35,086 nt of DNA from Cytophagales bacterium (lineage in GTDB: Bacteria; Bacteroidota; Bacteroidia; Cytophagales; Spirosomataceae). Under the pieces are notes generated by a model. It made no database searches, was not told where the DNA came from, and saw only the letters and a list, made by a program, of their open reading frames with translations. The DNA is taken from positions 1-35,086 of the forward strand of contig JAAFKE010000040.1 in NCBI GenBank assembly GCA_013298215.1, given 5' to 3'. A program made the translations under genes and the position numbers. Of this stretch, positions 28,760 to 34,554 are shown in pieces. Every line of letters starts with the position of its first letter. Position 1 is the stretch's first letter.

Positions 28760-31609
28760 ATGGAATACAAGCACCGCGAAATTGAGCAAAATTGGCAGCA
28801 TTTTTGGGAACAAAACCAGACCTATCGGGTCGAGATCGACCACAGTCGCCCCAAATATTACGTCTTAGATATGTTTCCGTATCCGTCGGGTGCGGGCCTG
28901 CACGTGGGGCATCCGCTGGGCTACATTGCCTCCGATATTATCTCGCGCTACAAACGGCTGAAAGGGTTCAATGTGTTGCACCCCATGGGCTTCGACAGTT
29001 TTGGACTTCCCGCCGAACAATACGCCATTCAGACGGGGCAACACCCCGCCATAACGACCCAAGAGAACATAAAAACGTTTGTTGGACAGCTCAAAAACAT
29101 GGGTTTTAGTTACGATTGGAGCCGAGAAGTACGCACCTCTGACCCCAATTATTATAAGTGGACGCAGTGGATTTTTAGGCAGTTGTTTGAGCATTACTAC
29201 GACAAAACCGCCGATAAAGCCCTGCCCATCGCCCACCTGATTGCCCAGTTTAACGAAGGTGGGTCGGGGGCGGTAAATGCCGCTTGCGACGACGATACGC
29301 CCGTTTTCGATGCCCAAACTTGGCGCACCATGGGTGAGTTTGAACAACAAAAAATGTTGCTAAAATACCGCTTCACGTTTCCCGAGGAGAGCCACGTGAA
29401 CTGGTGCGCTGGTTTGGGCACGGTGCTTTCCAACGACGAAGTAAAAGACGGTGTTTCTGAACGCGGCGGTTTTGCCGTGGAGCGAAAACTAATGAAACAG
29501 TGGGCCATGCGAATAACCGCCTACGCCGACCGCCTGATTTCGGGCTTAGACACCGTAGATTGGCCCGAACCACTCAAAGAACAACAACGAAACTGGATTG
29601 GGCGAAGCGTGGGCGCGAGCGTTAGGTTCTCGCTTTCAAACGCTTCAACTCCCCCGCTGGGGGTTGGGGGGCTCGAGGTTTTCACCACGCGCGTCGATAC
29701 TATTTATGGTGTGAGTTTTATGGTGCTCGCTCCCGAACACGATTTGGTGCAGGCGCTCACTACGCCCCAACAAAAAGACGAGGTAGCTGCCTACCAAACT
29801 TGGGCCGCCAACCGCAGTGAGGTAGACAGAATGGCCGAAAGAAAGGTGTCGGGGGCTTTTACGGGGAGCTATTGCGTCAATCCGCTCAACGACCAGCCGG
29901 TGCCGATCTACATTGCCGACTACGTGCTGGCGGGCTACGGCACTGGCGCGGTGATGGGCGTGCCGTCGGGCGACCAGCGAGACTGGAATTTTGCCAAGCA
30001 CTTTGGTTTGCCGATTGTTTCTATTTTAGACGCTCAAAAAGGCATTGACCAACAGGCCGATGCCACAAAAGAGGGCCGCTACATAAACTCGGGGATCATA
30101 AACGGCCTAACCTACAAAGAAGCCACCGATAGGCTCATAAAGTGGCTGGAAGCCAACAACGTGGGCAAGGGCAAGGTGCAGTACCGCCTGCGAAACGCTG
30201 TTTTTAGCCGCCAACGCTACTGGGGCGAACCCGTGCCAGTGTATTTTAAAGACTACGGCAACGGCCAGCCAATGCCCTGTTTGATAGACGAGGCCGAGCT
30301 GCCCTTGGAGTTGCCCAAAATCGACAAATACCTGCCCACCCAAACGGGCGAGCCACCGCTGGGCCGCGCCCAAAATTGGAAATACCACCAGCAATACGAC
30401 TACGAACTCTCGACGATGCCTGGCTGGGCGGGGTCGTCGTGGTATTGGTATCGGTACATGGATCCGCAAAACAGCGAGGTATTTGCCGACAAGACAGCGA
30501 TAGACTACTGGCAGCGCGTCGATTTTTACATTGGCGGCTCCGAACACGCCACGGGGCATTTGTTGTACAGCCGTTTTTGGAATAAATTTTTGAAAGATTT
30601 AGGACTCGTACCGCACGAAGAATACGCCGCCAAACTGATAAACCAAGGCATGATTCAGGGGCGGAGCAATTTTGTTTACCGAGTTAAAAACCAAACCCCC
30701 GCCGACGCAGATGCCAACGATGCGCCTGCTGGTGGCGGCGGTACTTTTGTTTCTTTTGGCCTAAAAGACCAGTACGAAACCACCAAGTTGCACGTGGACG
30801 TGAACATCGTAGAAAACGACTTTTTAGACCTCGATGCCTTCAAAAAATGGCGCGCCGATTTTGCCGATGCCACCTTTATATTAGAAGATGGCAAGTATCT
30901 GTGCGGAGTTGAGGTGGAGAAAATGTCGAAGTCTAAGTTTAATGTTGTGAACCCCGACACCATCGTGGAAAGATACGGGGCCGACACCCTGCGCCTGTAC
31001 GAAATGTTTTTGGGGCCGCTCACCGATGCCAAGCCCTGGAACATGAACGGCATAAGCGGTACGTATAATTTTTTGCGCAAGATATGGCGGCTCTTCTTCG
31101 ACGACCAGACCGACCAGCCCAAGTGGGACAATGCCCAACCCACCGCCCAAGAGCTGAAGGTGCTGCACCGCACCATTAAGCGCATCGAAGAGGACATTGA
31201 GCGGTATTCTTTCAACACGGTAGTGAGCACGCTGATGATTGCGGCAAACGAACTTACTGAATTGAAGTGCCACAAAAAAGCCATTTTAGAGCCACTCGTC
31301 GTGCTGTTGTCGCCCTACGCGCCCCACATAGCCGAAGAACTATGGGCAAAATTGGGCAACAAATCAGGCAGTATTTCAGCGGCTACGTTCCCCGTTTTTG
31401 ACCCCCAGTATTTGGTCGAAAACACCTTCGAGTACCCCGTTCAGATCAACGGCAAGGTGCGCGTTAGCTTGGTGTTTGCCGCCGATGCGCCCCCCGCCGA
31501 TATTGAGCGGGCGGTTCTCGAAAACGAAACCGTCATCAAATGGATGGAGGGTAAGCAACCCAAAAAAGTGATTGTGGTGCCGCGCCGCATTGTGAACGTG
31601 GTACTTTAA
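28760..31609 (+). CDS. leuS: Leucyl-tRNA synthetase
   Basis: A 949-residue class I synthetase that charges tRNA-Leu. The catalytic HIGH-type motif is HVGH (48-51) and the KMSKS loop is exact at 721-725. The CP1 editing domain begins after WIGRS and contains FTTRVDTIYG and later GTGAVMGVPSGDQRD; the WGEPVPV and DYELSTMPGWAGSSWYW blocks follow, and the anticodon-binding and C-terminal domains are intact. Just before the editing motif there is an unusual insert, STPPLGVGG, encoded by a G/C palindrome at 29647-29676. The substrate tRNA-Leu(UAA) is encoded about 300 bases downstream. Confidence 0.97.
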   Translation: MEYKHREIEQNWQHFWEQNQTYRVEIDHSRPKYYVLDMFPYPSGAGLHVGHPLGYIASDIISRYKRLKGFNVLHPMGFDSFGLPAEQYAIQTGQHPAITTQENIKTFVGQLKNMGFSYDWSREVRTSDPNYYKWTQWIFRQLFEHYYDKTADKALPIAHLIAQFNEGGSGAVNAACDDDTPVFDAQTWRTMGEFEQQKMLLKYRFTFPEESHVNWCAGLGTVLSNDEVKDGVSERGGFAVERKLMKQWAMRITAYADRLISGLDTVDWPEPLKEQQRNWIGRSVGASVRFSLSNASTPPLGVGGLEVFTTRVDTIYGVSFMVLAPEHDLVQALTTPQQKDEVAAYQTWAANRSEVDRMAERKVSGAFTGSYCVNPLNDQPVPIYIADYVLAGYGTGAVMGVPSGDQRDWNFAKHFGLPIVSILDAQKGIDQQADATKEGRYINSGIINGLTYKEATDRLIKWLEANNVGKGKVQYRLRNAVFSRQRYWGEPVPVYFKDYGNGQPMPCLIDEAELPLELPKIDKYLPTQTGEPPLGRAQNWKYHQQYDYELSTMPGWAGSSWYWYRYMDPQNSEVFADKTAIDYWQRVDFYIGGSEHATGHLLYSRFWNKFLKDLGLVPHEEYAAKLINQGMIQGRSNFVYRVKNQTPADADANDAPAGGGGTFVSFGLKDQYETTKLHVDVNIVENDFLDLDAFKKWRADFADATFILEDGKYLCGVEVEKMSKSKFNVVNPDTIVERYGADTLRLYEMFLGPLTDAKPWNMNGISGTYNFLRKIWRLFFDDQTDQPKWDNAQPTAQELKVLHRTIKRIEEDIERYSFNTVVSTLMIAANELTELKCHKKAILEPLVVLLSPYAPHIAEELWAKLGNKSGSISAATFPVFDPQYLVENTFEYPVQINGKVRVSLVFAADAPPADIERAVLENETVIKWMEGKQPKKVIVVPRRIVNVVL
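29647..29676. repeat. G/C palindromic insert within leuS
   Basis: AACTCCCCCGCTGGGGGTTG begins the element, which ends with a G-run and GCTCGAG; the core CCCCC-GCT-GGGGG is a perfect hairpin. It stays in frame and encodes STPPLGVGG at the entry to the editing domain. From memory, similar C-run/G-run segments recur in Bacteroidota genomes, so a dispersed repeat is likely; only one copy is in this window. Confidence 0.5.
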
Positions 31610-31784: not shown

Positions 31785-31857
31785 GCAAAAGTAGCTCAGC
31801 TGGTAGAGCGCGACCTTGCCAAGGTCGAGGTCGCGGGTTCGAACCCCGTCTTTTGCT
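31785..31857 (+). tRNA. tRNA-Gly (GCC)
   Basis: A 73-base cloverleaf. The acceptor GCAAAAG pairs with CTTTTGC. The D arm is GCTC...GAGC and the anticodon arm is CGACC-TTGCCAA-GGTCG, with anticodon GCC at 31818-31820. The T arm is GCGGG-TTCGAAC-CCCGT, with T as discriminator. CCA is not encoded. It reads GGC/GGU glycine codons. Confidence 0.97.
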
Positions 31858-31861
31858 CGAA

Positions 31862-31907: not shown

Positions 31908-32223
31908 GCTGGGATGGCGGAATAGGTAGACGCGCAGGACTTAGTTCGATGTTTAAAAAATTTGAGTGCTCTTGGGGAAATCCAAGATGTAGAACTTCTC
32001 AAAGTCGGTGAAGCCTTTAAAATGGTAATACCGAGCCAAGCCCCAAAGAAACTTGGGGAAGGTGTAGAGACTAAACGGGAGGTACCTAAAATTCGGTAAC
32101 GAATCATGGTAAAGATATAGTCCAGACCACAAATCCCGATTTTCGGGAGCAACGAAAGTTGTAGTAGGTACGAAAATCCTGTGAGCAGTAATGTTCGTGC
32201 GGGTTCGATTCCCGCTCTCAGTA
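31908..32223 (+). tRNA. tRNA-Leu (UAA), interrupted by a group I intron
   Basis: Exon 1 is 31908-31942 and exon 2 is 32173-32223; joined they give an 86-base class II tRNA. The acceptor GCTGGGA pairs with TCTCAGT, starting with a G-U pair as in E. coli tRNA-Leu(UAA). The anticodon arm becomes CAGGA-CTTAAAA-TCCTG, with anticodon TAA. A long variable arm (GAGCAGTAATGTTCGT) and the T arm CGGG-TTCGATT-CCCG follow. The intron splits the anticodon after its first base (U34 | A35). CCA is not encoded. The mature tRNA reads UUA (and UUG) codons, so splicing is needed for leucine decoding unless another copy exists. A terminator follows at 32259. Confidence 0.93.
31943..32172 (+). ncRNA. Group I intron (tRNA-Leu IC3 type), 230 nt, no ORF
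   Basis: The intron follows exon U34 and ends in G (32172), as group I introns do. GAGT at about 31963 can pair with exon ACTT, placing a U-G pair at the splice site (P1). The core contains CCGAGCCAAGCC (Q region), the P7 strand GTAGAGACTAAACGG (R) and AAGATATAGTCC (S), where GACTA pairs with TAGTC. P6a is CCCCAA-AGAAAC-TTGGGG. Late hairpins are ATTCG-GTAA-CGAAT (P8 region), CCCGATTTTCGGG and CAAC-GAAA-GTTG (P9 region), the last with a GNRA-type GAAA loop. Length, site and core words match the cyanobacterial tRNA-Leu(UAA) introns. It lacks a homing endonuclease, and self-splicing is expected from the intact core but not proven. Confidence 0.92.
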
Positions 32224-32478: not shown

Positions 32479-33081
32479 TTAAAGAAACGGTTCATATTTT
32501 TCTGAAAGAACGTCATCACATAGCAATTCATATTTAAACCATCTTTTATATGCGGCATCTCTCAGCGTGGCTCTATTAGTCGGGTGTCCTTTGTAAGTAC
32601 TGTACTCTCGTTTGATTTGTAGGGCTTTATACCTTTCTTCACTTTGAAACCGTCTATGAAAAATAACACCCACTTTTGAACAACTTTGGGACTCATAATA
32701 AATCCTATGCTGATAAGCCTCTCTCGACGTGAATCTCTCATAACCATCAGCCATGTATAAAACCTTACACGCCCGACCGCTCACGGGGCAAACAAAATAC
32801 AGCACCCGCCCACGCCCTAAATTACTCGGTATTGAGGTAAAAAAGATTTTATAGTCATAATCAGTAACCTCGCCCGTGTGTTGCTTGGTTACTTTGTAGA
32901 ATACCCTCAAATATCCATTGTTATCATGCAGTTTACTTTCAAAAGAAATCTTAGCATCATTATTCCATCTAATTACTCCACCCACATCTGAGTTTTTAAC
33001 AATTAGCCCTTTTTGCACCAACTGACTAATATTAAGCCTCATCACGCTTTCTGTTGTCTGACTTGTACCATATCTACCCAT
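32479..33081 (-). CDS. Hypothetical protein of a Bacteroidota accessory family
   Basis: 200 residues, basic, with no signal or membrane segment. The N-terminus MGRYGTSQTTESVMRLNISQL and the centre VLYFVCPVSGRACKVLYM, followed by FTSREAYQHRIYYESQ, remind me of a hypothetical family scattered through Bacteroidota genomes, often near mobile genes. The two cysteines of CPVSGRAC look like part of a metal knuckle, but a second cysteine pair is not evident. Function is not known. A 15-bp palindrome identical to the one before the replication gene lies 20 bases upstream of its ATG, and a strong terminator follows. Confidence 0.72.
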   Translation of the reverse strand: MGRYGTSQTTESVMRLNISQLVQKGLIVKNSDVGGVIRWNNDAKISFESKLHDNNGYLRVFYKVTKQHTGEVTDYDYKIFFTSIPSNLGRGRVLYFVCPVSGRACKVLYMADGYERFTSREAYQHRIYYESQSCSKVGVIFHRRFQSEERYKALQIKREYSTYKGHPTNRATLRDAAYKRWFKYELLCDDVLSEKYEPFL

Positions 33082-33100
33082 GTTGTTTGATTTAATGATT

Positions 33101-33115
33101 TGACATTTTTTGTCA
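33101..33115. promoter_or_regulatory. Operator-like palindrome, copy 1
   Basis: TGACATTTTTTGTCA: 5-bp arms TGACA/TGTCA around five T. It lies 20 bases upstream of the 200-residue gene and is identical over all 15 bases to 34063-34077. Confidence 0.6.
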
Positions 33116-33150
33116 TAAGAAACACCTTATTATAGACAACCCTCAAAACC

Positions 33151-34068
33151 TCATCTATAATACCGTTGAACACTCTTAACCTTTTGGTCGAGTTCTGCCA
33201 TTAGTTCGCTCGGCTCGGTTAGCTGAGGCATGGTACAAATCTCTTTTATCATGGCTTTGGTTCGGCTTGCATATTCTGGCCTCTCAAATTGCCCCCGTTT
33301 TCTGGCCTCCTCTACCATCTCAAAAACCGCCCCTTGCCCCATTGTCATAACCGCTTGCAAAAGCAACTGGTCTAAAAAGTCTTTGGGTTTTAGTTGTGCG
33401 TTGTCTTTGAATGCCATTTTTTTAAGTTTGTTTATACTGTGATACTCATGTACCCATCTATCACAAAAACCCATGTAAAAGCCCTCATCGTACAGTTGTC
33501 GGGCTGTCAGTTCGGTTATGTTGAATAGCTTACTGAGGCGGTGCAAATACCTCAGTTCAAACCTTAGTACATTTTGTTCCTTAAAGATAGCATGAATACC
33601 AACGCCCTTTGCCCTACATTCTGCAATTTTATCATAAAACAACTTGGTACGATTTGCCCCATTATAATAGAGGCTCGTTTGCTGTTGGGTTCTACTAAAA
33701 TGCTGGCAATCGCCCAAATATGGATAATAAATTGAGGGCGGGTGTTTCACCAAAAAGTTATTAGCCATATCAGCCCGCTTCACTACTGCCTCAGCTACTT
33801 TTATTTTGAGTGTGTCAGATAGTGCCTCTATTGCCCGCTCGGTGTCGCCTCTCGTTATTGTTTGCAAATTGTCATCTAAATACCATTTGGCCAAACTGCC
33901 TTTGATACTCACGCCCCTATCGCTCAAAATTAAATTTAGGTTTTTCAAGTCGCCCGTGATATAATAACTCTCGCCCCGCTGGTGTTCGGCCACTCGGCTC
34001 AGTAAGGGGGCAAGTTCTAAACCCGCCCCCTCTTTCCACAAATGTATGCTATCGTACATAATTGACAT
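33151..34068 (-). CDS. Phage/plasmid replication protein, filamentous-phage gpII/CRI-like
   Basis: A 305-residue protein resembling the gene II/CRI replication initiators of filamentous phages and small plasmids. An N-terminal half has GVSIKGSLAKWYLDDN and VVKRADMANNFLV. A central TSLYYNGANRTKLFYDKIAE is followed by VLRFELRYLHRLSKLF, the same order as the TVTW...R...AYLKHVE and LVRFEARIKLRYL segments of M13 gpII. Such proteins nick DNA to start rolling-circle replication. It is shorter than M13 gpII (about 410) and I could not place the catalytic tyrosine with certainty. The first ATG (34068) lies inside a palindrome; the next in-frame ATG at 34059 is an equally good start. The gene starts 18 bases after its upstream neighbour. 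Confidence 0.68.
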   Translation of the reverse strand: MSIMYDSIHLWKEGAGLELAPLLSRVAEHQRGESYYITGDLKNLNLILSDRGVSIKGSLAKWYLDDNLQTITRGDTERAIEALSDTLKIKVAEAVVKRADMANNFLVKHPPSIYYPYLGDCQHFSRTQQQTSLYYNGANRTKLFYDKIAECRAKGVGIHAIFKEQNVLRFELRYLHRLSKLFNITELTARQLYDEGFYMGFCDRWVHEYHSINKLKKMAFKDNAQLKPKDFLDQLLLQAVMTMGQGAVFEMVEEARKRGQFERPEYASRTKAMIKEICTMPQLTEPSELMAELDQKVKSVQRYYR

Positions 34069-34077
34069 TTTTTGTCA
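34063..34077. promoter_or_regulatory. Operator-like palindrome, copy 2
   Basis: Exact second copy of TGACATTTTTTGTCA, lying in the short gap between the 155-residue gene and the replication gene and overlapping the first possible ATG of the latter. A protein bound here could block transcription or initiation of the replication gene. Confidence 0.6.
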
Positions 34078-34086
34078 AAAATTGCC

Positions 34087-34554
34087 TCAATAGTTAAAAA
34101 ATGGCCGTGCCGTTGCCCTGAGTCGCTCAATTTCAGCATCAAAGCCCCCATCAATAAACCTATCAAATTGGCTTTCAACTATTCGGGCGGTGTTTGCCAA
34201 TACAAAGCACTCAATTTGAGTGTAGTCGTTATTGACCAAAAACAAAAGCCCATCGCTGGCATAGTCGCCCCATGCAAAATTGAATAATTCTTGATTTGAA
34301 AAATCTTGAAACAAAGACGTGATATTATTGCCGTTGGTCAAACAAACCTCAGCACGCCTTTTGGGATTCGACCTCACCACCTCTCGGCATGGACTTGGAT
34401 AAACAGCCAAATGTCCTTTGGTATTTTTTAGCCGTTCAATGTTTGTACTATTGCCCGCATACCCAATACAGTCTAAACGTGCCGCTGACCTAATTTTGTG
34501 AGCCATTCTTAACCCATCGCTGAGGCGTTCAAATTTAAAATAAGCCGTTATCAT
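34087..34554 (-). CDS. Hypothetical protein in the accessory operon
   Basis: 155 residues with no membrane segment, signal or family that I recognise. The start overlaps the stop of the HTH gene by four bases (ATGA) and its stop is 18 bases before the replication gene, so the three form one operon. In small replicons this position often holds a replication accessory or copy-control protein, but nothing in the sequence shows this. The N-terminal ITAYFKFERLSDGLRMAHKIRSAARLDC is basic; the C-terminal part is acidic to neutral. Confidence 0.6.
   Translation of the reverse strand: MITAYFKFERLSDGLRMAHKIRSAARLDCIGYAGNSTNIERLKNTKGHLAVYPSPCREVVRSNPKRRAEVCLTNGNNITSLFQDFSNQELFNFAWGDYASDGLLFLVNNDYTQIECFVLANTARIVESQFDRFIDGGFDAEIERLRATARPFFNY

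Follow-up and report, generated by a model that had tools for sequence, protein, structure and literature searches.

An apparently self-splicing group I intron in the tRNA-Leu(UAA) gene of a gliding Bacteroidota bacterium and its relatives in bacteria and phages

In the gliding bacterium studied here, the only gene that we found for the tRNA reading the leucine codon UUA is split by an apparent self-splicing intron. This raises the questions of what kind of intron it is, how far the cell relies on its removal, and how it came to lie in this genome. We analysed the stretch of 35,086 nucleotides that carries the gene (hereafter the window) together with genomes of the host family, of its order and phylum, and of other bacteria and phages. 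The explanation that fits best, and that we hold with high confidence, is a self-splicing group I intron of tRNA-Leu(UAA) that is mobile in the host family and of which the window carries an endonuclease-free copy.

The split gene and the anatomy of its intron

The tRNA-Leu(UAA) gene lies at window positions 31908-32223 on the plus strand and is interrupted at U34|A35 by a group I intron of 230 nt (31943-32172). Infernal (cmscan) matched the Rfam model Intron_gpI (RF00028) at 31945-32147 with 66.8 bits (gathering score 50, E = 5e-15), and the alignment spans the entire model (positions 1-253). ARAGORN, when introns are allowed, gives a tRNA-Leu(taa) whose 230-nt intron follows base 35 of the gene and so lies between U34 and A35; with its default settings, without introns, it misses the tRNA-Leu(UAA) gene. 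The joined exons form a cloverleaf with a long variable arm in the ARAGORN drawing, with which the minimum-energy fold agrees. We took the isotype from the exons; the ARAGORN labels shift when the program moves the boundary. The original prediction of a group I intron splitting this gene is confirmed: the intron class is borne out by the Rfam search that it had proposed, by ARAGORN with introns and by a covarying core, and the insertion site and exon boundaries by the sequence, ARAGORN and the fold. U34|A35 is the insertion site of the known trnL group I introns, which are familiar mainly from cyanobacteria and plastids and belong to subgroup IC3; those of cyanobacteria occupy the same anticodon site and are small, like the intron of the window.

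The exons, the intron and its structural elements are as follows, with the names of P9.0, P9 and the GAAA-capped hairpin given by analogy:

31908-31942 (+), 5' exon of tRNA-Leu(UAA), ending at U34 (sequence, ARAGORN)
31943-32172 (+), group I intron of 230 nt, terminal G (G32172), longest frame 51 aa (RF00028, ARAGORN with introns)
32173-32223 (+), 3' exon of tRNA-Leu(UAA), starting at A35, discriminator A at 32223, CCA not encoded
31939-31967 (+), P1, exon ACUU (31939-31942) with GAGU (31964-31967), U34.G wobble (U31942.G31964) at the 5' splice site, loop 31943-31963
31961-31967 (+), putative internal guide sequence UUUGAGU, read from the sequence, in which UUU (31961-31963) can pair with AAA of the 3' exon (32173-32175) as P10
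31970-31975 with 31982-31987 (+), P2 hairpin (structure drawing, covariation)
31994-32000 with 32077-32083 (+), P3, pseudoknotted with P7, outermost pair kept in 11 of 57 introns
32005-32010 with 32029-32034 (+), P4 (covariation alignment)
32013-32015 with 32024-32026 (+), P5, outer pair kept in 20 of 57
32035-32037 with 32061-32063 (+), P6 (covariation alignment)
32041-32046 with 32053-32058 (+), P6a (covariation alignment)
32069-32073 with 32118-32122 (+), P7, guanosine site, GACUA with UAGUC, 100% paired in 57 rows
32084-32086 with 32108-32110 and 32091-32095 with 32100-32104 (+), P8, GUAA loop
32126-32128 with 32167-32169 (+), P9.0
32134-32139 with 32143-32148 (+), P9
32149-32162 (+), GAAA-capped hairpin

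The two P7 words named from the sequence at the outset are thus correct, and both the pairing of P1 with the exon and the terminal G are present. The position of GAGU in P1 is GAGU or GAGC in 115 of 119 core rows, which had themselves been trimmed at a G(A/G)G(U/C) motif.

We assessed the predicted structure in an alignment of 57 related introns (out of 63 representatives picked at <84% identity, six viral rows being excluded). Standard pairs are formed in 92.1% of the cells, and 44 of the 58 core pairs changed on both sides, a value reached in none of 500 shuffles. The paired fraction falls to 29-44% when the pairing partners are slid, a comparison in which the drawn structure is favoured because it was drawn from the window sequence. 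All seven pairs of P3 changed on both sides, as did one of the five pairs of P7, of which the other four are invariant; the variable pair, the last one, covaries (A-U in 36 rows, U-A in 20, G-C in 1). The outermost pair of P3 and the outer pair of P5 lack support in this alignment. The comparison across the 57 introns backs a predicted core from P3 to P8 with the P3/P7 pseudoknot. Taken in isolation, and folded without the pseudoknot, the window intron has a z-score of -4.05 relative to 200 shuffles. We rejected a chance match on the RF00028 score, the covariation in the 57 introns and this z-score.

From this anatomy one can propose how the tRNA would be made. In the precursor, exon ACUU and intron GAGU would form P1, and a free guanosine bound in P7 would attack after U34. 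The freed U34 would then attack after the terminal G, guided by P10, and the exons would be joined into a working tRNA.

The tRNA locus in the genome and in the host family

Since a working tRNA would require the ribozyme to join the exons, reading of UUA would depend on it unless the genome encodes another tRNA-Leu(UAA). The draft assembly (3.55 Mb in 65 contigs, 99.97% complete, estimated contamination 0.08%) contains 32 uninterrupted tRNAs, with a leucine set of UAG, CAA, CAG, and GAG. No second UAA tRNA was found among these 32 or by the exact-pattern search of the draft genome, one of the checks suggested at the start: the UAA 5'-exon pattern occurs once, at the window locus, and the uninterrupted gene does not occur. 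The claim of a sole UAA tRNA therefore holds within the assembly. tRNA-Ile(GAU) and tRNA-Ala(UGC) are likewise absent from the list, so the assembly probably lacks rRNA operons or other repeats, and collapsed repeats could hide genes. TTA makes up 74 of the 853 leucine codons and is present in 22 of the 23 window ORFs taken as genes, and under standard wobble rules UUA needs tRNA-Leu(UAA). For decoding UUA, this bacterium appears to rely on the ribozyme.

The contig of the window carries gldKLMN, as had been noted from the sequence: GldK, GldL, GldM, and GldN all match their NCBIfam equivalogs above cut-off. Two genes upstream of the split gene place it in its locus:

28760-31609 (+), leuS, leucyl-tRNA synthetase, upstream of the tRNAs (Pfam PF13603, E = 2.1e-56)
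31785-31858 (+), tRNA-Gly(GCC), the other tRNA gene of the conserved pair (ARAGORN)

We searched for this locus in 150 genomes of the host family, which is probably Spirosomataceae (GTDB), four pairs of introns being identical between its genomes and named records. The UAA 5'-exon pattern is found in 141 of them: 122 have an uninterrupted tRNA-Leu(UAA) and 19, including the window genome, have it only in split form, with an RF00028 match at that place in all 19. Several genera contain both intron-bearing and intron-free genomes. tRNA-Gly(GCC) is upstream in 16 of the 19 interrupted loci (the remaining three stretches end too early to show it) and in 19 of 20 uninterrupted loci sampled from the 122 genomes, the exception being a second copy in one genome (G417). 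The order of the two tRNAs is kept in both states, and the site is therefore orthologous: it is the intron that varies, not the gene. With such an intron in 19 of 141 family genomes, the window intron is not an isolated oddity.

Some observations concern neighbouring elements and other group I introns. The genome with the exceptional locus carries tRNA-Leu(UAA) twice, both copies uninterrupted and separated by 26 kb (L252, L253), with only one of them adjoining tRNA-Gly, perhaps as the result of an integrated element that duplicated the gene. Directly after the tRNA of the window, and before the contig ends at 35086, there are three ORFs on the minus strand (32479-34554). The ORF at 33151-34068 matches Phage_CRI (G2P replication protein, E = 3.9e-19) and the other two have no match in Pfam or PHROGs; the region is perhaps an inovirus-like element beside the 3' end of the tRNA. 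Other tRNA group I introns of Bacteroidota have exons that read as fMet, Ile(CAU), and Arg(UCU), some of them mislabelled by ARAGORN (L045-L046, L048-L049, L051, L053-L055, L060, L064, L069, L072, L076-L078, L080-L084, L094, L098-L100, L102-L105, L111, L116, L120, L122). Six further RF00028 matches (L047, L065-L068, L107) have flanks that look like 23S rRNA and not like tRNA.

Endonuclease-bearing forms, wider spread, and origin of the window copy

Eight of the 19 family introns are 728-745 nt long and have an HNH frame within the loop of P1. This frame extends into P2 and P3 in seven of them, so that protein and ribozyme overlap. The one frame tested matches PHROG 14736 (HNH endonuclease, E = 1.7e-32), two of the proteins give weak matches, close to the cut-offs, to two Pfam HNH models, and two of the eight frames (L112, L113) are short and appear disrupted. 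The window intron lacks an endonuclease frame, and a search for a homologue elsewhere in its genome, made without a positive control, was empty. Its first five bases, AGTTC, are common to only 10 of 148 introns: the window copy, the eight endonuclease-bearing family introns, and a remnant-like family intron of 275 nt (L118). As a sign of endonuclease loss this shared start is suggestive only; a local alignment of the window P1 loop with the endonuclease-bearing loops is not significant (score 18, shuffled median 17). Reading movement from presence and absence across genomes, the family intron may be a mobile passenger of the conserved tRNA-Gly/tRNA-Leu locus, with the window copy as an endonuclease-free form and a putative HNH homing endonuclease in the P1 loops of some relatives.

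The original prediction of a much wider spread of this intron class proved right. RF00028 matches occur in 36 of the 150 family genomes (28 over the cut-off), in 21 of 291 genomes drawn from the order and in 30 of 395 drawn from the phylum; these draws overlap one another, and some matches lie outside tRNAs. A search of named genomes with a 3'-splice pattern gave at least 118 stretches. Among the 80 listed (81 matches), 74 matches were joined to a tRNA with an intron, six stop 21-235 nt short of the splice site, and one (L162) looks like chance; no cyanobacterium is named among these 80. Same-site tRNA-Leu(UAA) introns are present in at least six phyla besides Bacteroidota (at least seven in total), as well as in phages. 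By title or taxonomy the carriers include Pseudomonadota, Acidobacteriota, Bacteroidota, Planctomycetota, Armatimonadota, and Binatota, to which we add Litorilinea, a member of Chloroflexota; many of the records are metagenome bins, and several phyla are represented by bins only. A plasmid of Bradyrhizobium also carries the intron. A genome of the same phylum (L052) and a bin named Robiginitomaculum (L194) have identical intron cores, which reflects either a recent transfer or a mis-binned contig.

In viral contigs the pattern matched 53 times, 47 of them joined to a tRNA and six not. We examined three of the four best-covered matches in the phage collection, leaving out one (H22) of the same length and place as another (H21). 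The best phage match to the window intron is in a 735-kb huge-phage record (72.2% identity over 98% of the query, E = 1e-37). The tRNA-Leu(taa) introns are 205 nt long in this record, 700 nt in a 595-kb huge-phage record, and 278 nt in Agrobacterium phage Atu_ph07, a cultured phage without an annotated tRNA at the position of the intron. In one virus contig (L315) the intron lies within a tRNA cluster and has an HNH frame in P1 like that of the family. The HNH frame of the 595-kb record (L263) seems to be located not in P1 but in the P6 region, as though the endonuclease had moved between intron loops.

Where the window copy came from can be approached with two trees. The first holds 119 of the 148 introns, 29 having been dropped for lack of a recognised core start or for an insert inside the core; the second holds 107 rows, 12 having been removed after the first tree was seen, with a rough bootstrap. 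That the stretch is itself a contaminant, for instance cyanobacterial, as the original prediction had considered, is very improbable. The assembly is a draft of 65 contigs, but the same contig carries gldKLMN and leuS and the estimated contamination is minimal. Contamination is unlikely because the tRNA gene stands behind leuS and tRNA-Gly(GCC), and this tRNA pair, in an order kept across the family, is the family's own locus. An intron old in the family, inherited vertically with its tRNA gene, with many losses and little movement between genomes, would account for the same site in the same tRNA-Gly/tRNA-Leu locus throughout. It also agrees with the 119-row tree, where, the window aside, the 22 family rows (from 18 genomes, four represented twice) all group together with one virus row (81/98), and the AU test does not reject a family clade including the window (p = 0.237). 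Yet presence is mixed within genera (19 genomes with the intron against 122 without), an HNH frame is found in 8 of the 19, and phages have copies, one of which (L315) is on a long branch inside the family group. We consider such an old, largely immobile intron unlikely.

A separate gain of the window copy from a phage, from other Bacteroidota or from other bacteria, and not by endonuclease loss from the family form, seems to us nearly an even prospect. The variable P7 pair is A-U in the window, against 17 U-A and one G-C in the other 18 family introns. In the 107-row tree the window joins two further Bacteroidota rows, which by path are L146 and L126, in a starred trio (95/93). The best bacterial BLAST matches are alphaproteobacterial, from Sphingomonas and Rhodobacteraceae (L150, L151), with a family intron (L119) third; the highest identity, 76%, is to a Rhodobacteraceae intron, and the best phage match covers nearly the whole query. 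Against a separate gain stand the AGTTC start common only to the window and to the endonuclease-bearing or remnant-like family introns, the unplaced position of the window in the 119-row tree, and AU tests that reject none of the options tried, whether family with window (see above), family and L315 with window (p = 0.503), or window with phage L262 (p = 0.27). The window copy may thus have arisen either by a separate gain or by loss of the endonuclease. More tentatively, and with somewhat less conviction than for a separate gain, phages with their own intron-split tRNA-Leu(UAA), some HNH-armed, may be a reservoir from which the intron is seeded into the tRNA-Leu genes of bacteria in different phyla; the window copy would then be an endonuclease-free settler.

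Relation to known introns and meaning

Introns of this kind are already known; their spread, the HNH-armed form, and the copies in phage tRNA genes are less expected. Two known hosts of tRNA-Leu introns, Thiomargarita and Maribeggiatoa, are Gammaproteobacteria. Candidatus Thiomargarita nelsonii and Maribeggiatoa have tRNA-Leu-TAA introns called putative group I, which resemble the window case as interruptions of tRNA-Leu(UAA) outside cyanobacteria, and for which the accessible text gives no evidence on structure or mobility (PMC4853749). A 2014 review places tRNA group I introns in cyanobacteria, alpha- and betaproteobacteria (PMC4033280). The cyanobacterial tRNA-Leu introns are in the same tRNA and of the same class as that of the window (PMC4033280). 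Unlike them, going by their description only, the window intron has a Bacteroidota host, is patchy in its family and has relatives with HNH in P1.

Group I introns have also been described in fMet and Ile2 tRNAs, the fMet case at the anticodon loop (PMC8450103), in an Arg-TCT tRNA (PMC4853749), and in some tRNAs of circularized, mostly CPR genomes, where tRNAs are called particularly prone to them (PMC8172020). These are likewise tRNA group I introns, but in other tRNAs or hosts, and given the CPR cases a wide bacterial spread is not wholly unsaid (PMC8172020). For phages, a 2014 review of bacterial group I introns states that all phage introns then known were in protein genes, and finds scarce evidence for horizontal movement of bacterial introns (PMC3984707). 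In the parts consulted, papers on crAss-like phages likewise describe introns of protein-coding genes. The huge-phage paper does not use the word intron in its main text, and its tRNAs were called with tRNAscan-SE (PMC7162821), which was not designed to detect group I introns (PMC8450103). No group I intron of a Bacteroidota tRNA or of a tRNA gene in a phage came up in the literature covered, which left most subscription papers outside.

The intron-split phage tRNA genes run against the placing of phage introns in protein genes, as stated in the 2014 review (PMC3984707). The host family provides more than 100 orthologous loci, of which some lack the intron, others have it and several of the latter also encode an endonuclease, so that its gain, homing, and loss are directly testable.
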